DNA of 64,000 bases from Bacteroidales bacterium (GTDB lineage: Bacteria > Bacteroidota > Bacteroidia > Bacteroidales > JAIOZK01). The DNA is taken from assembly GCA_021740625.1 (NCBI GenBank), contig JAIOZK010000017.1:1-64000 (forward strand), in the 5' to 3' direction. The number at the start of each line of letters is the position of its first letter. Position 1 is the stretch's first letter. Both the position numbers and the translations under genes were made by a program. Shown one piece after another: positions 14,518 through 43,819 of the stretch. The notes under the pieces are model-generated. The model ran no database searches. It was not told the DNA's origin and saw only the letters and a program-made list of their open reading frames with translations.

Positions 14518-15105
14518 ATGAAAGCCACTGAAGTTAGCGATAAGGAGCTAATTAGCAGATATTTGCAAGGTAACCAGGCCAGCCTTGAAAAGCTAATTAT
14601 CCGTCACAAAAACAAAGTTTTTGCGTATATCCTGATGATCGTGAAAGATAAAGATCTGGCCGATGATATATTCCAGGATACATTTATCAAAGTAATCAAT
14701 ACCATTAAAGCCGGGAACTACAAAGAAGAAGGTAAGTTCATTCAATGGGTTATGCGTATTGCACACAACCTGATCATAGATCATTTCAGAAAATCCAAAA
14801 GAATTCCTGTTGTTGACAACAGCAACGAGGACTTTGATATTTTCGACACCATCAGTTTAACAGATAAATCTGTTGAGGAAAGGATGATCACCGACCAGAT
14901 CCATGAAGACGTCAGGAAGTTGATCGACTATCTGCCACCCGAGCAGAAAGAAGTTTTGTTTATGCGGCATTACTCACAAATGAGTTTTAAAGATATTGCC
15001 GAACAAACCGATGTTAGCATTAATACTGCCCTGGGACGTATGCGTTATGCTTTGATCAATCTCAGGAAGATTATTGCAGATAACAACATGATACTTACGC
15101 AATAA
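14518..15105 (+). CDS. ECF-type RNA polymerase sigma factor
   Basis: A 195-residue sigma-70 family protein with region 2 (LIIRHKNKVFAYILMIVKDKDLADDIFQDTFIKVI, residues about 26-60) and region 4 (LPPEQKEVLFMRHYSQMSFKDIAEQTDVSINTALGRMRYAL, about 140-180), the ECF layout with no region 3. An unusually strong Shine-Dalgarno-like AGGGGAGG sits just before the ATG, notable because this phylum seldom uses such sites. No anti-sigma (FecR-like) gene is adjacent, and the following gene is a 59-residue protein, so this is not the FecR-TonB arrangement. A weak hairpin with a short T run (about 15111-15147) follows the stop. Confidence 0.92.
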   Translation: MKATEVSDKELISRYLQGNQASLEKLIIRHKNKVFAYILMIVKDKDLADDIFQDTFIKVINTIKAGNYKEEGKFIQWVMRIAHNLIIDHFRKSKRIPVVDNSNEDFDIFDTISLTDKSVEERMITDQIHEDVRKLIDYLPPEQKEVLFMRHYSQMSFKDIAEQTDVSINTALGRMRYALINLRKIIADNNMILTQ

Positions 15106-22918: not shown

Positions 22919-24871
22919 TTATTCAAAATTGATAACAGAAGGCCGCCCGATTTTATAATCGTCGATGCGTTGTATGCCCCTGCCTTCAAACTTAAGGTTT
23001 GTTTGATGATAACCTGGTATCAGCCTTGGGAAAAAAGTAAACCTCAATTCTATGGCATCAATTACAAGATTCTCATTTTTAAACCTTATTCCAAATCCCA
23101 TGGAGGAGTATAATGACTGGTTGAGCAAATCCTCATTCACCGGACCTATTAAACCAAAATCAACGAATGAGAAGGCCGAGAACCTGAAACCGTATACATA
23201 CAAAGGAAGATAATAAACGGAGTTGACAGTTAAAACCAGTCTTTGTTGCCCCATGAGCACATCCTCATCAAGGTCGGCAAAACCGGAAGCATCATCCAGG
23301 CTTATGTGTTCATTCAAGTTCATATTAATCGCCCTTGTATATCCAAGGCTGACAATGTTTCTGATCTGCGTATTTTTGACACCGATTAAATTTGATATAA
23401 AAAGGATTCTTGCCTGCAATGCACCATCCTCGTAATTTTCCTTTCCCAAATACCCACCCAGCATCAATTTCCCTGAGAGGTATCCAAATCCATTGAAGTA
23501 GTTACCGGCAGAAGTGGAAAAACCGAGATAGGATCTTTTCAGAAACTCACCCCATTCATAACCGCCTGTTATTAAAAACTTAAATCCATAGGGTATATCT
23601 TCTGTCCGGCCAAATTCATATACATATTTGCTCTGATAATAGCGGTTTTTACTAATGCCTACCCCAGCCAGAAGACGGGTGTATGAATGGAAGTTTGTAT
23701 TCGAGTCCAGAGAAACGAATGGTCGCTGAACGTAATGTTTGTTGGTAAATCGAAGCATTCCCACCAGGAAGGTTTCACGATTGTTTTCAGGACCAGGATT
23801 AAAAAACTTAAAATCATGACCAAAATATGCATCACTCAAATTGTACAATGTTTTATATTGCTGGTTTTTCATATTCTGATCATACAGCCAGACCCTGTCT
23901 GAGGTATGATAAAATTCCATTCCACCTGCAAACCTGATTTTATAAGGGATCAAGTCACGGTTAAATTTTACAGCGTAGGTTTTCCTGTAATCATCTCTTT
24001 GAAACCAGACCTTGCCCGCAACAAAAGAGCCCGCAATATTTTCCACACTGTATTGCCCTTTATCAACACGCAATCCCGGGCTGGTATCTGAAAGAAATTC
24101 GAGTGTGGTAGACAGTTCATGTCCGAAACCAGCGAAGTTCTGGTTCCAGAGGCGCAAACTCGCCCGATTGATATTTTTTGCAGTAAAATTAGCACCATAG
24201 GGGAAGAGATCTTTTGTAATCACGTATACATCAACCGAATCGGGCGAAATCTCCTTCAGTACAATTTTGGCATTGTCGATATAAGGTAATTCACGCAGGA
24301 GCCTCTCGTTCTCAGCCATGACCATGGCCTGGATATCATCACCTTCTTTAAACAAAAGATTTTCCCTGATTACATAATCTCTCGTCTTTACATGAATTTT
24401 GTTGGCCTGTTCACCCAGCCAGGATGTTGATTTGCGGCTTGTATCCTGTACGGTCGGACCGAAAACATCAAGTTTGCTGATGATGATCCTGCCGATCTTT
24501 TTCCCTTCATAGGGGATGTATTGATCCTCGCTTTGGACCACCTGTACATTCTCAGGCAAATCGGATTTGGCAGGTACGGTGAAAAGCAGATTGTATAATC
24601 CCCGGGTTACCCTGCTTCTGCTTGCCTTTGACTGAATGGAATCATAAAAATCCCTGGACCTGTCGAATGATACCGGAGAAATACGATAGGGTATTGAATC
24701 AGGCAACACGATCATTGTATCACCATCTGCCTGGATGATCTTTTCCTTAACCCTGAGATAATATCCCTTTTTCAAATAAATCGTATCCGGTGCAAAAGCA
24801 CCGAATAAATGATAAACACACCCTACTGTGAAGATCAGCAATAGAATTGTATAAATCGTCTTCACTTTCAT
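22919..24871 (-). CDS. BamA/TamA-like outer-membrane protein
   Basis: A 650-residue protein with an N-terminal hydrophobic signal (MKVKTIYTILLLIFTVGCVYHLFGA), a soluble part with at least one POTRA-like segment (GRIIISKLDVFGPTVQDTSRK...RENLLFKEGDDIQAMVMAENERLLRELPYIDNAKIVLKE, residues about 127-215), and a C-terminal beta-barrel of alternating aromatic strands ending FEGRGIQRIDDYKIGRPSVINF. It resembles the surface-antigen/BamA superfamily rather than housekeeping BamA, which has five POTRAs and is longer. A Cys at residue 18 (VGC) could make it a lipoprotein, but the barrel makes this unlikely. It lies in the operon after phosphoglucomutase. Confidence 0.78.
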   Translation of the reverse strand: MKVKTIYTILLLIFTVGCVYHLFGAFAPDTIYLKKGYYLRVKEKIIQADGDTMIVLPDSIPYRISPVSFDRSRDFYDSIQSKASRSRVTRGLYNLLFTVPAKSDLPENVQVVQSEDQYIPYEGKKIGRIIISKLDVFGPTVQDTSRKSTSWLGEQANKIHVKTRDYVIRENLLFKEGDDIQAMVMAENERLLRELPYIDNAKIVLKEISPDSVDVYVITKDLFPYGANFTAKNINRASLRLWNQNFAGFGHELSTTLEFLSDTSPGLRVDKGQYSVENIAGSFVAGKVWFQRDDYRKTYAVKFNRDLIPYKIRFAGGMEFYHTSDRVWLYDQNMKNQQYKTLYNLSDAYFGHDFKFFNPGPENNRETFLVGMLRFTNKHYVQRPFVSLDSNTNFHSYTRLLAGVGISKNRYYQSKYVYEFGRTEDIPYGFKFLITGGYEWGEFLKRSYLGFSTSAGNYFNGFGYLSGKLMLGGYLGKENYEDGALQARILFISNLIGVKNTQIRNIVSLGYTRAINMNLNEHISLDDASGFADLDEDVLMGQQRLVLTVNSVYYLPLYVYGFRFSAFSFVDFGLIGPVNEDLLNQSLYSSMGFGIRFKNENLVIDAIELRFTFFPRLIPGYHQTNLKFEGRGIQRIDDYKIGRPSVINFE

Positions 24872-33290: not shown

Positions 33291-34037
33291 ATGCTAACGC
33301 GCAACAAATATATATTGCTTATCATCCTGCTTGTTTTTGTAAAACAATCGGGAATCATTGCACAACATACCCGACTGAATCAAAATGCATCCGTTTACAA
33401 TGTTTTGTTGGTCAATTCTGATTCACTTTACGGAGCAAATGACAAACTTGTTAATGGAAGCCTTTATGATCCTTTGCATTCTATGGCAGCCGGTCATCCC
33501 TATTACCCAAAAGAATCATTTCAGGTGGGAGATATCGCCGTCCTGGGTGAAATCTTTACAGGTGAAAAAATCAAATTCAACATTGAATTGCAAAAGCTTG
33601 TTCTGAAAAAGCTCATCAGCAAAGGAGCGACAACAGAGATACTGCTGAATAATACACTTGTAGACTCTTTCAGCATCAGAAACAAGAAATTTATCAATCT
33701 TTTCTTTTTACCCTTGGCAGACAGCCTGCAGGGTTTTGCTGAGGTAATATTTGATGGTGAGTTTGGATTTTACGCATATCATAAAAAAATCTTAAAGGAT
33801 GATTATACCCGGAAAACGCCTTATGGAAGATACCAGGAGCTATCGCCAAGATATTTCCTTATCATGAACCAAAATGTTAAAACCATCCGAAAAAAGCGAG
33901 ACTTCTTAAAGATTTTCAAAGGGCAAAGGAAAGAGATCAGGAAATTCATGAAAAAACAGAACATTAAATATAAAAATGCATCCAGTTCTGAACTGGCAAG
34001 GATCCTGAAATATGGAGAGAAGAATATCGGGAAATAG
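33291..34037 (+). CDS. Uncharacterised secreted protein, first gene of the TonB-receptor unit
   Basis: A 248-residue protein with a Sec signal peptide (MLTRNKYILLIILLVFVKQSGIIAQ). The mature part has beta-rich segments (residues about 30-185, with VYNVLLVNSDSLYGANDKLVNGSLYDP and a fairly conserved-looking HPYYPKESFQVGDIAVLGEIFTGEKIKFNIELQKLVLKK) and a strongly basic helical tail (KKRDFLKIFKGQRKEIRKFMKKQNIKYKNASSSELARILKYGEKN). I recall similar lone basic tails in uncharacterised Bacteroidota exported proteins but cannot name a family. No lipobox. It overlaps the receptor gene by 26 bp, implying translational coupling and a shared job. Confidence 0.8.
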   Translation: MLTRNKYILLIILLVFVKQSGIIAQHTRLNQNASVYNVLLVNSDSLYGANDKLVNGSLYDPLHSMAAGHPYYPKESFQVGDIAVLGEIFTGEKIKFNIELQKLVLKKLISKGATTEILLNNTLVDSFSIRNKKFINLFFLPLADSLQGFAEVIFDGEFGFYAYHKKILKDDYTRKTPYGRYQELSPRYFLIMNQNVKTIRKKRDFLKIFKGQRKEIRKFMKKQNIKYKNASSSELARILKYGEKNIGK

Positions 34038-36813
34038 AATTAGCATTATTATACTGCTGATATTGCTTTTCATCATGGATGTAAAACTCCTGGGACAGGA
34101 CCATGTAATCTTTCCCGGCAAAAAGCTGGATAATACCGAGTGGAATGATTTTAAGGCAAGCATGAAGAAAGCCCATGGGATCAATTTTTTCTATCTGCCC
34201 GGGAGCATCCCCAATGTTTTTATGAAGATAGAAGCTGATACACTCTCACTGCGCAAGATCCTTGCAAATAATTTTGGCAAATTTGGGATCCGTATTTACC
34301 ATGATCCGGCCGGAAATTATTTTCTGCTCAAGGAAAAAGACCTTAAAACTTCCGTACCAGATGCATTCTTCAAACTTCCGGATTATCAAAAGGAAACGAT
34401 TAGAAATGAAAAAAAGTTAACAAGCAAGGGATTTCTGGAAACCAAAAATGAATTCGTTTGGCAGGAAATCCACATCGGCCAGAAAAGCTCCCTGAATGGC
34501 AAGGAAAAAGTAAAGTTGCATGGAAAACTTGTCAATAGTGTGAATAAGCAGCCCATATTCGGGGCAAATCTTTATGTTGAAGAACTTAAAAAAGGTACCA
34601 CAACAGATGCTGATGGCAAGTATGATCTTGACCTTCCTCCGGGAGGTTACACCCTGAGGGTGAGCAGCCTGGATTCAAAAGAGCTTAAATACAAACTGAA
34701 TATTTATGAAGACGGCGCCCTGAACATCGAACTGGAACCGAAGCTATACTTACTCAATGAAGTGGTGGTGAAATCCAACCGCTATCAGAACGTAAGGGGG
34801 ACGCAGATGGGAATTGAAAAACTTTCGGTCAAGAACATCAAGGAAATTCCGGTAGTGCTGGGAGAAAAGGATATCAGCAAAGTTGCGCTGCTTCTGCCAG
34901 GGGTGCAAAGCATGGGAGAAGGTTCTTCCGGTTTTAATGTCAGGGGCAGCCCCGCCGACCAGAATCTTTTCTACATTGACCAGGTTCCGGTTTACAATAC
35001 CGCCCACCTCTTTGGGTTCTTTTCGGCTTTTAATTCGGATGCAATCGATGAATTCACCTTATTCAAAAGCAACATACCCATAGAATATGGCGGGAGACTG
35101 GCCTCCATTTTCAAATTGAATGCAAAAAAAGGCAGGTTGAATAAGTTCAGTGCAAGGGGTGGCATCAGTCCCATCACCACTCATTTGCTTGCCGAAGGTC
35201 CTCTCAGCAAAGGGAAAAGCAGCTTTTTGCTTGCAGCCCGGTCCACTTATTCCGACTGGCTACTCAAAATGGTCAGGGACCCGGACATCCGGAACAGCAG
35301 CGCCGGATTTTCCGATGGTATCCTGAATCTTTCCTTTCAATTGGACAAAAACAATCATCTCGGCATTTTCGCTTATGGCAGCAAAGATCGTTTCCGGCTT
35401 TCCGATATCTTCGATCATGATTATTACAACCTGGGCAGTTCTGTTTCCTGGCGCCATATTTTCGACAATAAACATGCAGTGAACCTGAGCTATGTTTATG
35501 CGCAATACGGGTTCAGCGAAAAGAACCAGGAACTGGACCTGGCCGCCTTTAAACAATCTTTCCAGCTCGACCATCATCAGTTCAATGCTCAATACAGCCT
35601 GAAAAACACAGGCGATCATGACATCAAATTCGGGATCAATACAACCTATTACATGATAAACAGGGGAGATTACATTCCTGCAGGCCCCGAATCCAGTGTA
35701 AATAAAACTTCTTTCGAACCTGAGAACGCCATGGAAACTGGTATTTTTGCCGGTGATCAGTGGCAAATCAGCAAAAAACTAACACTGGAAGCCGGACTGC
35801 GCTTGAACTATTATGCTTACCTCGGACCACACAAGGTATATAACTACCTGCCAGGTGAACCCATGATCCCTGAAAACATCACCGATACGATTGCATATGG
35901 AAGCAGTAAGATCATAAAATCATACAATAACATCGACTACCGTTTTGCAGCCAATTATACCTTTAATGAAAATCTTTCGCTGAAGGCCAGTTTTAACAAA
36001 TTGCATCAGTATATTTTTCTGTTGTCAAATTCCATCACCATCTCCCCTACTTCCATCTGGAAACTGAGCGATCCGCATATCAGGCCCATGCATGGAGACC
36101 AGTTTTCTCTTGGCATATACAAAAACATCTGGGGTGGGCAATATGAATTATCCGTTGAGTCATACTATAAAAAAGCAGGTGATCTTGTCGAGTACAAGGA
36201 CGGAGCAGAATTTACCCTGAACAAGTTCCCCGAAACGGATATTATTCAGGGAGATCTGGATGCATGGGGTGTGGAATTCATGATTAAAAAATCTTTTGGC
36301 ACCATTAACGGTTGGTTCAATTACACATATTCCAGAGCAAAGATAAAAGCACTGAATACAGCCAGAAAGGAAGAAAATAATTTCGGCTTGTCATATCCAG
36401 CCAATTACGATAAACCGCATGCCCTGAACCTCGTTTTGAAATGGGAATTATCGAAACGGCTGAGCCTCTCAGGAAATGTCGTATATGCTACAGGCAGGCC
36501 GATCACACTGCCCACTGCTGTCTATTATCAAAACGGAATGGAAGTATTGCAGTATTCATTGCGAAATGAATTCAGGTTGCCGGATTATTTCAGGGCCGAT
36601 GTATCCCTCGCAATAGAAGGCAATCTGAAACGGAATAAGCTGGCGCATGGCAGTTTTGTATTTTCAGTATACAACATCACCGGAAGAAAAAACGCCTATT
36701 CCGTATTTTTTGAATCGGATGACGGAGATATCAAAGCATATAAATTATCCATCTTTGGAGCCCCCATTTTCTCTGTATCCTATAATTTCAAACTTGGGAA
36801 TTATGAAGATTAG
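34012..36813 (+). CDS. TonB-dependent receptor with STN-like and carboxypeptidase-regulatory domains
   Basis: A 933-residue outer-membrane receptor. After a signal segment (SIIILLILLFIMDVKLLGQ) comes an STN/secretin-like domain (residues about 40-112, FFYLPGSIPNVFMKIEADTLSLRKILANNFGKFGIRIY), a carboxypeptidase-regulatory-like beta-sandwich (about 160-240, VKLHGKLVNSVNKQPIFGANLYVEELKKGTTTDADGKYDLDLPPGGYTLRVSS), a plug (about 250-385, containing GFNVRGSPADQNLFYIDQVPVYNTAHLFGFFSAFN) and a 22-strand-type barrel ending with aromatic strands. STN domains usually signal through FecR, but no fecR or sigma gene is adjacent. It overlaps both neighbours. Ligand unknown. Confidence 0.9.
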   Translation: MERRISGNRISIIILLILLFIMDVKLLGQDHVIFPGKKLDNTEWNDFKASMKKAHGINFFYLPGSIPNVFMKIEADTLSLRKILANNFGKFGIRIYHDPAGNYFLLKEKDLKTSVPDAFFKLPDYQKETIRNEKKLTSKGFLETKNEFVWQEIHIGQKSSLNGKEKVKLHGKLVNSVNKQPIFGANLYVEELKKGTTTDADGKYDLDLPPGGYTLRVSSLDSKELKYKLNIYEDGALNIELEPKLYLLNEVVVKSNRYQNVRGTQMGIEKLSVKNIKEIPVVLGEKDISKVALLLPGVQSMGEGSSGFNVRGSPADQNLFYIDQVPVYNTAHLFGFFSAFNSDAIDEFTLFKSNIPIEYGGRLASIFKLNAKKGRLNKFSARGGISPITTHLLAEGPLSKGKSSFLLAARSTYSDWLLKMVRDPDIRNSSAGFSDGILNLSFQLDKNNHLGIFAYGSKDRFRLSDIFDHDYYNLGSSVSWRHIFDNKHAVNLSYVYAQYGFSEKNQELDLAAFKQSFQLDHHQFNAQYSLKNTGDHDIKFGINTTYYMINRGDYIPAGPESSVNKTSFEPENAMETGIFAGDQWQISKKLTLEAGLRLNYYAYLGPHKVYNYLPGEPMIPENITDTIAYGSSKIIKSYNNIDYRFAANYTFNENLSLKASFNKLHQYIFLLSNSITISPTSIWKLSDPHIRPMHGDQFSLGIYKNIWGGQYELSVESYYKKAGDLVEYKDGAEFTLNKFPETDIIQGDLDAWGVEFMIKKSFGTINGWFNYTYSRAKIKALNTARKEENNFGLSYPANYDKPHALNLVLKWELSKRLSLSGNVVYATGRPITLPTAVYYQNGMEVLQYSLRNEFRLPDYFRADVSLAIEGNLKRNKLAHGSFVFSVYNITGRKNAYSVFFESDDGDIKAYKLSIFGAPIFSVSYNFKLGNYED

Positions 36814-37948
36814 AAAACTGCTGAACATATTGATACTTGTCCTGGTCTCTTTCTCCTGCATAGACGAGTATCCCCTGGATATTAAGTCCTATGAAGATTT
36901 ACTGGTTGTGGACGGCATGATCACAAATCTCCCCGGCCCTTATACTGTAAAACTTTCCCGGTCCACTTCGGTCGAACATCCGCAATTTGATCCCGTGCAG
37001 CAGGCAGTGGTCCGCATTGCGGATGATCTTGGGAACAGTGAACAACTGCTGGAGACCGAGAAAGGTATTTATCAAACATCCGCCGGAGGTATGCAGGGAG
37101 TGGCCGGACGAAATTATAAACTAAATATCCAATTAAAGAGTGGTAAACAATATGAAACAGCATTCGAAAAACTTCAGCCGGCAGTGGGTATAGATTCAGT
37201 TTATGCAGAAATTGAAAGCAAAGAAACCAACGATCCGGATGATGATCTGTTTGGGTACCAGTTTTACCTGAACTCCGCCCAGCCCCAGCATGATACTGTA
37301 TATTATTTGTGGCAATTAACGGAAACCTATGAGTTTAATTCCGATTTTACACTGGATTACCTTTACAACGGAAGCATTGAACCCTCCGGAGATCCCTATA
37401 AGTTCTACAAATGCTGGAAGACAGAAGACATCCATCAGATCTTCTGCTTTTCTACCCTGAATCAAAACAATTCTGTCGTTCAGGATTATCCTCTGAATTT
37501 TGTTTCAACCAAAAGCAAAAGATTGACGATCCGCTATAGCTTGTTAACAACCCAGCTCTCGGTCAATGCGGATGCATACAAATTTTGGGATGATGTGCAG
37601 GATCAAATCAATGATGAAGAATTACTGTTCGACCAGCAACCCTTTCAGATTCGCGGCAATCTTTACAATGCAGAAGATCCAAGTGAACCTGTAATGGGAT
37701 ATTTCACCGTTGCAGGGGCTGCACAAAAAAGAATTTTTGTGAACCGGCCACTTTTTGTTGATTTTGATTACCCGCTGTGTTTCGCAGATACCGACCTGAG
37801 AACCCTTTATTATACCCCTCGCAGGTATTGGCCGATATATTTAACGGATACAAAAGATGGAATAGCCCATGCCGCCAAATCCTGCTTTGACTGCAGGATG
37901 CATGGCGGAGTACTTAATAAACCCGAATTCTGGATCGATGGTGAATAA
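36803..37948 (+). CDS. DUF4249 family lipoprotein
   Basis: A 381-residue outer-membrane-type lipoprotein. The signal MKIRKLLNILILVLVSFSC has a lipobox (SFSC) and is followed by IDEYPLDIKSYEDLLVVDGMITNLPGPYTVKLSRSTSV, the beta-sandwich start typical of DUF4249. The C terminus holds a conserved-looking CFDCRMHGGVLNKPEFW cysteine pair. DUF4249 proteins nearly always accompany a carboxypeptidase-like TonB receptor in this phylum, and are assumed to be its surface partner, but no ligand is known. I start at the ATG at 36803; a longer in-frame start would lie inside the receptor. Overlap with the receptor is 11 bp. Confidence 0.88.
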   Translation: MKIRKLLNILILVLVSFSCIDEYPLDIKSYEDLLVVDGMITNLPGPYTVKLSRSTSVEHPQFDPVQQAVVRIADDLGNSEQLLETEKGIYQTSAGGMQGVAGRNYKLNIQLKSGKQYETAFEKLQPAVGIDSVYAEIESKETNDPDDDLFGYQFYLNSAQPQHDTVYYLWQLTETYEFNSDFTLDYLYNGSIEPSGDPYKFYKCWKTEDIHQIFCFSTLNQNNSVVQDYPLNFVSTKSKRLTIRYSLLTTQLSVNADAYKFWDDVQDQINDEELLFDQQPFQIRGNLYNAEDPSEPVMGYFTVAGAAQKRIFVNRPLFVDFDYPLCFADTDLRTLYYTPRRYWPIYLTDTKDGIAHAAKSCFDCRMHGGVLNKPEFWIDGE

Positions 37949-40265
37949 GAAAATGACATATTATTTCTTTCTGACCTGGGCCATGTTTGGTTTATTAAAC
38001 ATCTGGCCTGTGCAGGGACAAATCAGTATTCCGTTAAAAACAGATGACAGCAGCATTGGACCAGAAAAAATATACCTGCATACCGACAGGGATGTATATG
38101 TGGCAGGTGAAAACATTTATTTCAGCGCGGATTGCTTTGTTCCTGGCATGCCTGAATGGAACATCAGCAATATTATATATGCGGAATTATTCGACAACAA
38201 ACAAAACTCCCTTGCCAGGAAAAAATTAAAAGTCGAAAAAGGAATGGCCCACAACCGGATCAGGATTCCTGCCGATCTCCCCACAGATTATTATTACCTT
38301 CGGGTGTTTACCCAGTTTTCAAGAAACTTCCCACCATCTGTTGCTCCTTACAAAGCGATCCTGGTAATTAACCCTGAAATCCCCCCTGAATTAAATGAAC
38401 AAAATACAATCGATAAAGTGGAATTCTACACCGAAAACAGCGGTCTGGTAAATGATATCCGGAACAGGCTTGTGTTTCGCATGAACCGGCAACTCACAAA
38501 AACGACCGACAGTGTTTTCCTTTTCAGATATGGTACCGATACAACAAGGGTAAAAGTCACTTGTTTGAATGATTTTGGAATAATCGACATGATCCCCACC
38601 GACAGTGTGAATTTCGAATTGCTCTTTTGCATTAAAAATCAGGACAGTTTGCTGATCAGGCCGGAAATTCCTTTGATCAAACCCGAAATATTCACAAAAA
38701 TCATCAAAGAACACAAACGTTTCAGATACATACTTTCCGCGAATAAATTTCAAAATAAGATCTTGCTACTGCAGGTCATGGATCAGGCTTTAATGCCACT
38801 TGCCAGTAGATCTGTAAAACTTAACAATGATACGGTTTCATTCGATATCGCCGAAAATGACCTGAATGACGGGATTAATTATTTTATTCTGAAGCACGGG
38901 GATTCTATCCTTCGAATAAATGCTGTTTTCAGAACGCCCATTGTAGAAGAGGTCACTGTTAAATGCGAAAGGGAATCCTATCAAACCAGAGAAAAAGTGA
39001 CACTGCAACTCAAAATCCCTCATGACACTGCATGCTTATCTGTGAGTGTTGTAAAGATGGGGAGTCGCGGCAATACAGGAGGACTGAATGCTCAAAAGTT
39101 ACTAAATCCTGATTTGCTGCTTCATGATCCCCTGTCAAGTCTGAACATTACAAATGAAGATCTGCTAAAAAGAGAAGCAGCCCTGCTGATTCTCAACAAA
39201 AAACTCCGTGAGGACCCCTCCTTTCTTCCCTTGAAAGAAGCAAGCAATGATAAATTCTGGATTCCGGAAACACGCGACATCGGACTCAGTGGTTATGTTG
39301 TGAATCAAAGCAACGGGCAGCCGGTTGCTGAGCAAAGCATTATTGGTTCGGTATTGTTCAGCAGACCGCAATTCCATATCAACAGTACCCAACAGGATGG
39401 CAGCTTTTTCCTTTCCTTTTATGGTTTGTATGAGATGCAGAATTTGTTTCTCAGCCCGATGCACCCCGATGGTGATCTCCAGATTCTCATCAACAATGAT
39501 TTCGGGGCAAGCTTCCCTGCAATTGAACACATTGATTACCTGCCTGACAGCAGCCGGAAATCCTGGTTGAACGAGCTTTATCTGAATGCACAACTAACAG
39601 ATAAATATGGCAAAGCGGACTCAGTGTTGAGAACACATGCGCTGCCGGATGTTTTCAAAGACAAAGCCCATGAGATCAGCTTGTCGGAATATATTGAACT
39701 CTCTTCAATGAAAGAAGTTTTTAAGGAGATTGTACCCTTTGCGAGGATGAGAAAAGTTGATGGAGAAACCAGGCTGGGGGTACTCAACCACAACAAAAAC
39801 ATCTGGTATGAAAACCCGCTCATCCTGCTGGATAATATACCCATCAGTAACGCTGGTATGCTGGATGCAATCCATCCTTCTACGGTTGAGAACATCAGTG
39901 TTATCAATGAAACCTATGTCCTGGGAGATCATTTTATCCCGGGAATCATTTTTATCAATACGCTGAAAGGAAAGTTTGCGGGGCTGGAAATGCCTGACAA
40001 CTCCGTATTTCTCGAATACCAGATGCTCGCTGAGGAGCAAAAATTCGAAGTCCCCGACTACGAGTACCCCGGACAGGTAAACAATCCCCGGCCCGACTTC
40101 AGGAATTGCCTTTACTGGGCTCCCGGTATAACTGTGCATCAGGACACAGTGCTGGAGTTTTACACTTCCGATCATATTTCTAAGTACGAAATATTCATCG
40201 AAGGAGTGGATTATCAGGGAAATCCCATTGCAGGTTATCATATCATAGAAGTTTCAAGTAAGTAA
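37938..40265 (+). CDS. MG2-domain protein with a TonB-plug-like domain but no barrel
   Basis: A 775-residue exported protein with a signal segment (YYFFLTWAMFGLLNIWPVQGQ). Residues about 37-140 resemble a macroglobulin MG2 domain (EKIYLHTDRDVYVAGENIYFSADCFV...SLARKKLKVEKGMAHNRIRIPADLPTDYYYLRVFTQF). A carboxypeptidase-regulatory-like stretch (LSGYVVNQSNGQPVAEQSIIGSVLF...QDGSFFLSF) lies near 455-510, and a plug-like stretch (NPLILLDNIPISNAGMLDAIHPSTVENISVINETYVLGDHFIPGIIFINTLKGKFAG) near 625-690, but no barrel follows; the last 60 residues form a small beta domain. Start at 37938, overlapping DUF4249 by 11 bp; 37953 is an alternative. Confidence 0.82.
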   Translation: MVNKKMTYYFFLTWAMFGLLNIWPVQGQISIPLKTDDSSIGPEKIYLHTDRDVYVAGENIYFSADCFVPGMPEWNISNIIYAELFDNKQNSLARKKLKVEKGMAHNRIRIPADLPTDYYYLRVFTQFSRNFPPSVAPYKAILVINPEIPPELNEQNTIDKVEFYTENSGLVNDIRNRLVFRMNRQLTKTTDSVFLFRYGTDTTRVKVTCLNDFGIIDMIPTDSVNFELLFCIKNQDSLLIRPEIPLIKPEIFTKIIKEHKRFRYILSANKFQNKILLLQVMDQALMPLASRSVKLNNDTVSFDIAENDLNDGINYFILKHGDSILRINAVFRTPIVEEVTVKCERESYQTREKVTLQLKIPHDTACLSVSVVKMGSRGNTGGLNAQKLLNPDLLLHDPLSSLNITNEDLLKREAALLILNKKLREDPSFLPLKEASNDKFWIPETRDIGLSGYVVNQSNGQPVAEQSIIGSVLFSRPQFHINSTQQDGSFFLSFYGLYEMQNLFLSPMHPDGDLQILINNDFGASFPAIEHIDYLPDSSRKSWLNELYLNAQLTDKYGKADSVLRTHALPDVFKDKAHEISLSEYIELSSMKEVFKEIVPFARMRKVDGETRLGVLNHNKNIWYENPLILLDNIPISNAGMLDAIHPSTVENISVINETYVLGDHFIPGIIFINTLKGKFAGLEMPDNSVFLEYQMLAEEQKFEVPDYEYPGQVNNPRPDFRNCLYWAPGITVHQDTVLEFYTSDHISKYEIFIEGVDYQGNPIAGYHIIEVSSK

Positions 40266-40502: not shown

Positions 40503-41498
40503 ATGCAAAACAAATCAGGAAGAAGATTTCCCTTAATCATTTTTGCTTTTGTTATCCTGTTTACCACATCATGCAAAAAAGATGAAGAGGAGGTTAAACT
40601 ATCCGGACGCAGGATATCCAGAATTGATGTCTATTATAACAAAGAACATGTAGACAAAACACTGATAACCTATAAAAACAACAAGGTAACAGAAATGCGA
40701 TCCTACAGAATTGATAATGGTGAGGAATATTACAGAGAGTTGATCAGTTATCCGGCCCCTGATCAAATTCATATATTGAACGAAAGCAATATCGAGCAAA
40801 GAGGCTGGGAAAAGATCAGGGAAATTGATATTTTTCGTGAAAACGAAATGACAAGTTCAATAGAAACAAGAAAATTCGAAAATGGCATGCTTGAGTCGGC
40901 TGAAAAAGAGGAATATTTTTATTCAGGAGATAAAATGATGCAATATCATTTATCAAACAGAGATATTGAAAATTCGGTATGGAAGCCTTATTTCAAGGAA
41001 GAATGCACTTATGAGAACAATCTCTTGCAGCAAAGCAATTACTTCTTTTATGATGAGAATGACTCCCTGGATTATTATGGCAGATCCATTTGTGAATATA
41101 TTAATGATGGTAAACTTTATACATGCAGCATGCAATATAAAGCAACGTACAACTATCATTATATGTACCGAATCAGATTAATATACAATGAAAGGGATAA
41201 AGTTGAAAAATCATACCTGGAATTGCCGCAGAACAACTGGGGGAAAATCCAATACTGGTACTCATTTGAATACAATGAAAAAGGAAAACTAAGCAAAAGG
41301 CAATATTATGATACCGATGATGATATTCTGATTGAATACAAGCTTAAAAGGGAGGAGGGTACCGGAAACATGAATGACATTATGCGAACAGGTGAGATTG
41401 CATTGAGAACTTACTGGTGGCCAAGCATAGATCATACAGGAGAGGGTACATTATTCCCTTCAGCACTGCTTTATAAACATCTGGAACTCCATGAATAA
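40503..41498 (+). CDS. Uncharacterised lipoprotein
   Basis: A 331-residue lipoprotein: signal MQNKSGRRFPLIIFAFVILFTTSC with lipobox FTTSC, then an acidic KKDEEEV spacer that in this phylum can serve as a surface-export tag. The mature part consists of repeated beta-hairpin-like segments with asparagine/tyrosine-rich turns (NGMLESAEKEEYFYSGDKM, NEKGKLSKRQYYDTDDD), which look like antiparallel-sheet repeats of the toxin_YD/MORN-like kind, though I cannot name the family. A fasciclin gene overlaps its stop by 8 bp. Function unknown. Confidence 0.8.
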   Translation: MQNKSGRRFPLIIFAFVILFTTSCKKDEEEVKLSGRRISRIDVYYNKEHVDKTLITYKNNKVTEMRSYRIDNGEEYYRELISYPAPDQIHILNESNIEQRGWEKIREIDIFRENEMTSSIETRKFENGMLESAEKEEYFYSGDKMMQYHLSNRDIENSVWKPYFKEECTYENNLLQQSNYFFYDENDSLDYYGRSICEYINDGKLYTCSMQYKATYNYHYMYRIRLIYNERDKVEKSYLELPQNNWGKIQYWYSFEYNEKGKLSKRQYYDTDDDILIEYKLKREEGTGNMNDIMRTGEIALRTYWWPSIDHTGEGTLFPSALLYKHLELHE

Positions 41499-42970: not shown

Positions 42971-43219
42971 TTATCTGACTTATGCATGGAATACTTTGGC
43001 AGCATGCCAGGATTTTAATTTTTCTTTATCTTTAATCACACCAGTAAAACCAAATTCATATGTATACCGAGAAACAAATCGAACCTGTGACAGAGCTCTG
43101 CCAGGCGCTGAATGAACTACCCCGCCGCAAACAGGATCCCGGACCAGCTTTTCCCCTGGATAAACTCAGGCAAGTTATCCAATAATCAAGCTGGGACTCG
43201 CACCCACATTGATTATTGA
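42971..43219 (+). other. Gene-poor gap with a 41-codon ORF
   Basis: The gap after the permease contains one short frame, ATG 43060 to TAA 43183-43185 (MYTEKQIEPVTELCQALNEL and 21 further residues). Its last seven codons lie in the shared repeat TCAGGCAAGTTATCCAATAA (43166-43185), so the frame is probably the start of a gene cut off by the repeat, or not coding at all. I do not recognise it. Confidence 0.35.
43166..43185 (+). repeat. REP-like 20-mer, second copy
   Basis: TCAGGCAAGTTATCCAATAA is identical to 10976-10995. Confidence 0.8.
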
Positions 43220-43310
43220 GTGTTGAACGTTGAATATTGGAAATTTGAATGTCGAATACTAAATAACGAATATCGAACAGCAGGCAGCCCCCAACTTCGA
43301 CATTCGACAT
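43220..43310 (+). repeat. Dispersed intergenic repeat, copy 2
   Basis: Aligns with the reverse complement of 10865-10960 (see there). It ends directly at the point where similarity to the later T9SS gene begins, so it marks the breakpoint of the truncated copy. Confidence 0.75.
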
Positions 43311-43819
43311 ACGACCCCACCAACATCGACGCCGATCCCCTCTGGGCCAATACCGGCTACTACCCCTACATGCTGTCCTATGGCTCCCCCTGCATCAACA
43401 CCGGTACCCTGGACCTGCCCGAACACATCGAACTCCCCGAAACCGATCTGGCCGGCAACCCCCGCGTTTATGACGGACAAATCGACATGGGCGCCTATGA
43501 ATTCGGTCCCTGGGTGGGCGTGGATTACCAAAAGCCAAAAGCCAAAGGTCAACAGCCAAAAGCCAACCCCAACCCCTTCCAACACGAAATCCGTATCCAA
43601 TACAACAGCAAAGAAAAAGGCAAACAAAGCATATTTGTATATGACATCAACGGAAACAAAGTAGCCACTTTAATGGATATCACAGGCCAGCCCGGCCGTG
43701 GCGAGATCATCTGGGACGGAAAAAACAACTACGGTCGTATGCTTCCCTTCGGGGTTTACGTGGTGGAGCTTGTGGTGAATGAGGAAAGTAAGGGGAGCGT
43801 GAAGGTGGTGAAGAAGTGA
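43311..43819 (+). pseudogene. 5'-truncated copy of the T9SS beta-helix gene (sorting-domain end only)
   Basis: From ACCCCACCAACATC onward the frame encodes about 168 residues nearly identical to the last part of the gene at 48390-50702: NIDADPLWANTGYYPYMLSYG, GSPCINTGTLDLPEHIELPE, TDLAGNPRVYDGQIDMGAYEFG, then a type-A T9SS C-terminal domain (QSIFVYDINGNKVATLMDI, IIWDGKNNYGRMLPFGVYVV, KGSVKVVKK). A frame continues upstream to an ATG at 43220, but that part is made of the dispersed repeat and has no signal peptide, so the product could not be exported. The linker before the sorting domain has acquired repeated QKPKAKGQQPKAN residues. Recent partial duplication is the simplest reading. Confidence 0.85.

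Follow-up and report, generated by a model that had tools for sequence, protein, structure and literature searches.

A conserved four-gene locus of Bacteroidota around a TonB-dependent receptor and DUF4249, with a macroglobulin-type protein as candidate partner of the receptor's STN domain

What does the STN domain of a TonB-dependent receptor do when no anti-sigma factor is encoded beside it? This question is raised by a locus in a Bacteroidales bacterium (GenBank assembly GCA_021740625.1, contig JAIOZK010000017.1, of which the first 64,000 nucleotides were analyzed and are hereafter called the window). Four genes for exported proteins follow one another here on one strand, namely an unnamed secreted protein (gene 1), a TonB-dependent receptor with an STN-like N-terminal domain (gene 2), a DUF4249 predicted lipoprotein (gene 3) and a macroglobulin-type protein that carries a segment resembling the receptor's plug region (gene 4). 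A complex between the N-terminal signaling domain of a receptor and the periplasmic domain of an anti-sigma factor is established elsewhere (PMC7186176), and STN-anti-sigma signaling has been described in SusC proteins (PMC7782687). We tentatively read the locus as a TonB-dependent module for uptake across the outer membrane that is complete in itself and extends the known receptor-DUF4249 pair, and in which gene 4 would take the place of FecR as the partner of STN.

Genes 1 and 4 are members of the module

Among 295 sampled genomes of the order, gene 4 was matched in at least 117 and gene 1 in at least 58; at most three or nine candidates were scored per genome depending on the search, and the genome counts are lower bounds. 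In 37 out of 40 loci from this order, all taken around gene 1 matches (order loci), the genes stand on a single strand as 1-2-3(n)-4. The three exceptions are a locus at a contig end (L067), one where 4-3 is divergent from 1-2 (L097), and one without a DUF4249 match between genes 2 and 4 (L081). By scanning named genomes with the receptor profile, with resemblance to gene 2 as the only condition, we obtained another set made up of the best 80 loci (named loci). The full order 1-2-3(n)-4 was found in 61 of these, 60 of them with an intact gene 2 open reading frame (ORF), and in the remaining 19, judging by lengths, either the contig or locus stops where the missing gene is expected or ORFs are joined or split. 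The 60 complete named loci belong to Bacteroidales, Marinilabiliales, Cytophagales, Chitinophagales, Sphingobacteriales and Saprospirales, plus one to Salibacteraceae, while 19 of the 60 carry no rank; the taxon names are those in the records, which are mostly metagenome bins. Named carriers of the module include Prolixibacter denitrificans and Mucilaginibacter agri.

A further 20 loci were selected for a gene 4 relative for which the genome search had shown no neighboring gene 1. Seven of them (L181, L185, L186, L189, L195, L197 and L200) hold all four genes in the order 2-3-4-1, one (L187) has 1-2-3-4, another (L183) has 2-3-4 without gene 1, and ten have gene 4 relatives but lack the module. 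In L184, 4-1 is divergent from a gene 2 that is cut by the contig end, and no gene 3 was seen. The receptor tree (FastTree, with N-terminal columns removed and a midpoint root for drawing only) unites the seven 2-3-4-1 loci with L184 in a clade (support 99) that is separated from the 1-2-3-4 clade by systems without gene 1 or without both genes 1 and 4. Because this separate receptor clade keeps all four genes as 2-3-4-1, the four-gene linkage has outlived rearrangement. Genes 1 and 4 are real module members, and the four genes were inherited together.

The first-pass annotation, which had been made from the window alone, tied its idea of a four-protein unit to the first and last genes being kept with the receptor across Bacteroidota. 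By all three counts above this holds for the receptor class found in the window. In the wider receptor family it fails, as receptor-DUF4249 pairs there commonly stand without genes 1 and 4, and it fails too in five STN receptors that have gene 4 but for which no gene 1 was found.

STN domains beside FecR or gene 4

The wider family was surveyed in 296 genomes of the phylum. At E<=1e-120, the receptor family was found in at least 84 of these, at 136 listed places (a maximum of three per genome), and relatives of genes 1 and 4 occurred in at least 63 and 58 genomes, respectively. At 31 places the receptor was matched from position 40 or earlier, and 26 of these, distributed over 23 genomes, have gene 1 directly upstream. 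Among the other five, one follows a module that does bear gene 1 (L240), three lack a gene 1 match although genes 3 and 4 are present, and one is cut by the contig end. The best stretch starts later at the other 105 places, none of which has gene 1 directly upstream or within 8 kb, among the gene 1 matches listed, the strongest as well as the weaker ones; a later start is not the same as a missing STN domain, as several such receptors show a diverged N-terminal domain when read whole.

Three kinds of receptor were observed in the family: those without STN and with DUF4249 only, those with STN and FecR, and those with STN and gene 4, usually accompanied by gene 1, without FecR. STN together with genes 1, 3 and 4, and no FecR in range, was found for 38 out of 39 receptors in the order loci. 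The same applied to 60 out of 80 in the named loci, the other 20 scoring as incomplete, mostly due to contig cuts or split ORFs. The mixed set L221-L257 comprises 38 receptors, several of which were picked for long frames. Six of them have the full set, five have STN and gene 4 without gene 1, and eight have FecR and no gene 4, all eight FecR genes being confirmed by Pfam. Another 17 have no STN, gene 4 or FecR in range; three of these are near a sigma gene, and in L225 a FecR-like ORF lies about 4.9 kb off. The remaining two are cut by the contig end (L241) or have gene 4 together with a diverged N-terminus (L247).

By scoring STN as an N-terminal extension of at least 95 residues, and either gene 4 or FecR as its partner, 87 receptors could be compared. 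Both were present in 69 and neither in 16, and no receptor had a partner only. A single receptor (L241, contig-cut) had the extension without a partner, and an ambiguous one (L251) was set aside. Extension and partner also agree in all five independent pairs in the tree. In the loci examined, FecR or gene 4 accompanies the STN receptors of this family, and neither accompanies those that have no STN.

The genome from which the window derives (95% complete) contains three DUF4249 genes, each beside a receptor of this family. One of these receptors has no STN (contig C13), one has STN, FecR and a sigma gene (C19), and the third is that of the window (C23). The FecR on C19 is the only one found in the genome at E<=1e-5, and the neighboring window ORFs that were scanned include no FecR or ECF sigma gene beside the module. 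An ECF sigma gene is situated at 14518-15102, approximately 18 kb from the module, between uvrA-like and endonuclease III-like genes, and has no FecR among its scanned neighbors.

Layout of the locus and its proteins

The features of the locus are collected in Table 1. The four ORFs reported by the first-pass annotation, and its overlaps of 26 (genes 1/2), 11 (2/3) and 11 bases (3/4), were recovered with starts at 34012, 36803 and 37938; coupled translation in fixed amounts, as proposed at first pass, would be a putative consequence. The last overlap, however, hinges on the choice of start, since the in-frame ATG at 37953 leaves a 4-base gap after gene 3. Among the 60 complete named loci, overlapping junctions were found in 41 (genes 1/2), 46 (2/3) and 15 (3/4), and spacings of 0-30 bases in 15, 11 and 38 more, respectively, with starts picked by a rough signal-peptide rule. 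Close or overlapping junctions are thus typical of the family.

Table 1. Genes and domains of the four-gene locus, in window positions.
Feature	Position	Strand	Remarks
Gene 1	33291..34037	+	248-residue exported protein of an unnamed family
Gene 2	34012..36813	+	TonB-dependent receptor, 933 residues
STN-like N-terminal domain, gene 2	34102..34341	+	About residues 31-110, approximate limits; by homology
CarboxypepD_reg_2 (NTE) domain, gene 2	34519..34770	+	Residues 170-253; Pfam
Plug domain, gene 2	34861..35097	+	Residues 284-362; Pfam
Beta-barrel, gene 2	35338..36678	+	Residues 443-889; Pfam
Gene 3	36803..37948	+	DUF4249 predicted lipoprotein, 381 residues; start ATG at 36803
Gene 4	37938..40265	+	Macroglobulin-type protein with CarboxypepD-plug segment, 775 residues; alternative start 37953
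MG2 domain, gene 4	38067..38312	+	E 4e-4; 21.1 bits, below the cut-off of 32.8
CarboxypepD_reg and plug-like segment, gene 4	39273..39995	+	Profile positions 446-686, colinear with receptor 166-380
Last four strands, gene 4	40107..40256	+	Residues 724-773, after the plug-like segment; from DSSP of the model, role putative

The macroglobulin-type protein was analyzed by means of an alignment (A3) of the window gene 4 with 47 of the 60 complete ORFs, giving 48 rows with lengths of 553 to 823 residues. At E<=0.01, 40 of these rows match MG2. The AlphaFold model, based on 48 sequences (pLDDT 83.3, pTM 0.82), begins with a signal-peptide helix and is mostly beta structure thereafter. Its best matches are alpha-2-macroglobulins (A2M) and complement C3/C5, with Foldseek E-values down to 3.3e-15. 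By VIA, 4u4j was matched with Z 17.4 (root-mean-square deviation, rmsd, 15.1; 283 aligned) and 4u48 with Z 17.1 (rmsd 5.1; 288 aligned), and the five bacterial A2M entries in the VIA list range from 16.4 to 17.4 in Z. The plug without a barrel that the first-pass annotation had noticed is backed by profile-profile alignment, where gene 4 446-686 aligns with the CarboxypepD-plug region of the receptor (166-380) at an hhalign probability of 86 and E 5e-6. Furthermore, the plug part finds SusC structures in the PDB by sequence (E 5.5e-5). Structural alignments to bacterial A2M begin near model residue 40, continue through to 775 and, on the A2M side, close at about residue 1011-1020. They reach the domain that bears the bait, pass the bait part, which is disordered at 923-942 in E. 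coli A2M (PMC4498604), and stop short of the thioester part; judging from the model, the plug-like segment would sit near the bait position. Gene 4-like macroglobulin/plug proteins of approximately 780-880 residues also occur without the four-gene module (L182, L188, L190-L194, L196, L198 and L199), in several of these loci two or three in a row.

The receptor matches the Pfam families PF00593 (1.4e-21), PF13715 (3.6e-17) and PF07715 (3e-07), and exceeds the curated cut-offs for the TonB_dep_Rec barrel (78.4 vs 27 bits) and Plug (31.4 vs 23.9 bits). It stays below the SusC/RagA cut-off (TIGR04056), scoring 55.2 bits against 368.25. Pfam STN (PF07660) was detected in two of the 23 rows of the receptor alignment A1 (the window receptor and 22 of the 39 order-locus receptors), at best with 8.4e-08, and the window receptor itself had no match at E<=1. 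Among the domain labels given at first pass, DUF4249 is a strong one (PF14054 in gene 3, E 8e-41, 140.8 vs a cut-off of 28.5 bits), but STN went undetected in the window receptor and the MG2 of the window falls below its cut-off. A receptor consensus before the plug, LxEVVV, resembles the Bt1763 Ton box VDEVVV; as a loose pattern it is present in 11 of 23 receptors and also in 17 of 48 gene 4 proteins. Two joined ORFs were considered as evidence of contact and not used. The one joining genes 2 and 3 (L139) is missing the final receptor strand, has an internal DUF4249 signal sequence and looks like a frameshift, and the one joining genes 1 and 2 (L176) has no profile match over the STN region.

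For gene 3, DUF4249 is the sole Pfam family at E<=1, and at the sequence level no SusD family was matched. Its likely lipid-anchor Cys19 is encoded at 36857-36859 and followed by I-D-E-Y-P. A lipobox pattern was identified in 61 of 78 gene 3 copies; among these 61, position +1 is I/V in 44 and position +2 is E/D in 53, as would fit surface lipoproteins. Repeated DUF4249 genes were found among the 61 complete loci, with two copies in six, three in two and five in two. In five repeat-bearing loci, the copies over 300 residues are 42-82% identical, and tandem copies may constitute an exchangeable surface part for changing ligand. L117 (12741-22757) has nine tandem DUF4249 ORFs behind one receptor, one of 268 residues and the last truncated at the end of the L117 sequence analyzed; the eight over 300 residues are 42-75% identical.

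Gene 1 is made up of a predicted signal peptide with Q25 after the likely cleavage site, a beta-rich domain and three C-terminal helices (AlphaFold pLDDT 89.9). It has no Pfam or NCBIfam match at E<=1, and in the alignment of its relatives (A2, the window gene 1 plus all 71 complete ORFs) no Pfam family was found in more than one of the 72 rows at E<=0.1. Against the PDB, the sequence gave a single weak match (E 0.076) and the model no Foldseek match at E<=0.001. The best VIA Z was 3.6, in a list that is a re-examination of Foldseek's own matches and is no evidence of a new fold. Relatives of gene 1 outside the module (L201 10359-11105, and L202-L220) are in some cases tandem, with four in L214. 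The one in L202 is flanked by DNA polymerase III alpha and a LysR regulator, as identified by Pfam, and the relatives in L201 and L202 had no Pfam match themselves. Neighbors across L201-L220 are varied, with similar-sized ones in some, and gave no clue to function. A twofold recruitment of gene 1 was considered and dropped, as the gene 1 tree, a quick tree with many long branches, keeps a single module clade as acceptable (p-AU 0.743).

An [AGS]Q motif near the signal-peptide end is found in 48 of 60 copies of gene 1, 53 of 60 of gene 2 and 48 of 60 of gene 4, and the Bacteroidetes Q-rule marks signal peptidase I substrates (PMC5837995). Genes 1 and 4 resemble such substrates, not surface lipoproteins, and would therefore be placed in the periplasm, where gene 1 is probably a companion protein.

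Certain loci depart from the usual layout. In L240 (5686-18208), two receptor modules stand in tandem with one gene 1 (1-2-3-4-2-3-4). A SusD-like neighbor cluster is found upstream of five modules (the member in L103 being assigned by Pfam) and is not general. Just after the module in the window lies a gene for a predicted lipoprotein (40503-41498), without a Pfam match, which has an 8-base overlap with a fasciclin-domain gene and, at E<=1e-10, is not matched by any ORF of the 40 order loci. A short remnant at 43056-43819 has a repeat-like stretch in its front part (FDIRYLVFDIQ on the minus strand), which may be a common intergenic repeat of Bacteroidota. Lastly, a 650-residue ORF at 22922-24871, with no Pfam match at E<=0.001, is situated beside DUF5063 and FeoAB genes.

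How the module may work, and its known relatives

In the uptake module that we favor, one or more DUF4249 lipoproteins would catch a ligand at the cell surface and deliver it, in the manner of SusD with SusC, to the receptor, which would import it with TonB energy. The STN domain would reach into the periplasm and bind gene 4, perhaps together with gene 1, instead of the anti-sigma factor FecR. Binding or transport would then be relayed not to a transcription switch but to a periplasmic protein, which would accept, retain or gate the incoming ligand, with gene 1 as a periplasmic helper. A bolder version, which we regard as doubtful, posits a new class of periplasmic partner. A thioester-less macroglobulin-type protein with a copy of the receptor's CarboxypepD-plug unit would have displaced FecR, and the receptor would have been rewired from transcription to a periplasmic cargo-capture or gating machine. 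Gene 1, a small protein of unplaced fold, would accompany it, and the surface would carry interchangeable DUF4249 receptors, encoded by up to at least nine ORFs in tandem.

Several points weigh against an uptake module with gene 4 as STN partner. The five tree pairs give a sign test p of 0.0625, which is not significant, and only one of them involves gene 4, the rest involving FecR. For a direct exchange of gene 4 and FecR the tree gives two supported pairs, almost never differing in both, and hardly an informative one. The 69 receptors with both extension and partner are inflated by selection, since the loci L061-L100 and L101-L180 had been picked for their similarity to the window gene 1 or 2. 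In L081 (1-5353), a sigma-FecR-receptor set follows directly downstream of gene 4 on the same strand, FecR and sigma there adjoining the second receptor. Both gene 1 and gene 4 have relatives outside the module, the DUF4249-SusD parallel is an analogy, and the probable periplasmic location of genes 1 and 4 is read from their signal peptides. As for the macroglobulin likeness, the Foldseek TM-scores of gene 4 normalised by query are 0.10-0.24 in the top 50, the VIA rmsd spans 3 to 20, the sequence match to A2M reaches E 0.12, and no A2M or bait-region Pfam family was found across the 48 rows at E<=0.01. The likeness is thus one of domains and their order, and an A2M-type closed ring would go beyond it.

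Of the other explanations, an aid to assembly survives best, unlikely as it seems to us. Genes 1 and 4 would be periplasmic helpers in receptor folding, holding or insertion, or in conveying the DUF4249 lipoprotein, without any transport role, and the gene 4 segment would mimic or protect the plug while the receptor is assembled. The homology of this segment to the NTE-plug of the receptor speaks for it, as does the SusC protein Bt1763, which without its NTE gave no growth on levan, a result for which the authors considered biogenesis or function rather than transport itself (PMC7782687). However, of the 38 receptors classified in L221-L257, 14 lack STN and have only DUF4249 as a scored partner, and because pairs without genes 1 and 4 are common, the core receptor-DUF4249 pair does not need them.

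Signaling by another route, with gene 4 relaying from STN to an unlinked inner-membrane sensor so that the module still controls transcription, we consider quite unlikely. It would agree with the signaling role of STN elsewhere (PMC7186176, PMC7782687) and with gene 4 replacing FecR in position. On the other hand, of the 99 receptors in L061-L180 that scored for STN and genes 1, 3 and 4, 98 have no sigma or FecR gene in range (other sensor types were not searched for), and the gene 4 model is mostly beta after its N-terminal helix.

The proteolysis role suggested at first pass has been weakened, and we now hold it to be very unlikely. According to this, gene 4 would be a reduced A2M that traps or blocks proteases, guarding the receptor or handling a protein ligand. 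The top structural matches, with Z up to 17.4, are what one would expect, but the CxEQ thioester motif is found in none of the 48 gene 4 rows, and a folded plug-like segment seems, from the model and the alignments, to replace the disordered bait. Equally improbable is one outer-membrane complex of all four proteins, in which genes 1 and 4 would join DUF4249 at the outer surface. All four proteins are exported and their linkage is conserved, but there is no evident route to the surface for genes 1 and 4, of which two of 60 copies each have a lipobox-like match and whose Pfam lists contain no type IX sorting domain. That the genes merely share a promoter and history, with no joint mechanism, would suit the relatives of genes 1 and 4 outside the module, but is highly improbable given a linkage that survived rearrangement (L097 and the 2-3-4-1 clade).

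The pairing of receptor and DUF4249 recognized at first pass is indeed a known one and is found in many Bacteroidota. In Bacteroides thetaiotaomicron, BT2172 and BT2173 function together, disruption of either having similar consequences, and the receptor subfamily of BT2172 almost always adjoins DUF4249 (PMC11003636). What appears to be new is the four-gene form with genes 1 and 4. This variant was not found in the open-licence literature searched, though a prior description in print is possible, and the four genes are absent from the passages of a B. thetaiotaomicron genetics paper (PMC11300592); nor did the accessible literature yield a ligand or mechanism for receptor-DUF4249 pairs. Two candidate relatives were rejected, namely the outer-membrane assembly machinery with Flavobacterium BAM subunits (PMC12611786), as "MG2", "macroglobulin" and "plug domain" do not appear in its main text, and the Riemerella competence genes (PMC8459023), which in the passages concerned have only the CarboxypepD_reg label in common with gene 4. 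The three-way comparison of receptors (no STN, STN with FecR, STN with gene 4) makes the role of STN without an anti-sigma factor a direct question of binding, and the gene linkage ties a macroglobulin-type protein to an outer-membrane importer in a defined set of four genes, which are removable one by one.

Set against known systems, the window module shares with BT2172-BT2173 a TonB-dependent receptor with an adjacent DUF4249, as compared by description. Unlike the module, BT2172-BT2173 is described as a pair, genes 1 and 4 not being mentioned in the passages of PMC11003636. With SusCD, which works by a "pedal bin" mechanism (PMC7782687), and RagAB, the module has in common a barrel receptor with a CarboxypepD_reg (NTE) domain and a surface lipoprotein partner. 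It differs from them in that gene 2 is well under the SusC/RagA cut-off, gene 3 is DUF4249 and not SusD, and genes 1 and 4 are extra. Gene 4 resembles bacterial alpha-2-macroglobulin (E. coli YfhM, Salmonella) in the macroglobulin-type domains of its model, but has no CxEQ, carries a receptor-like CarboxypepD-plug segment and gives low whole-chain TM-scores. Lastly, the module is like FecA-FecR-FecI in its STN-bearing receptor, and sister systems built on receptors of this family have FecR, in most cases with an ECF sigma gene as well. In contrast to these, no FecR or sigma gene stands beside the module of the window, and gene 4 is found in the operon instead.

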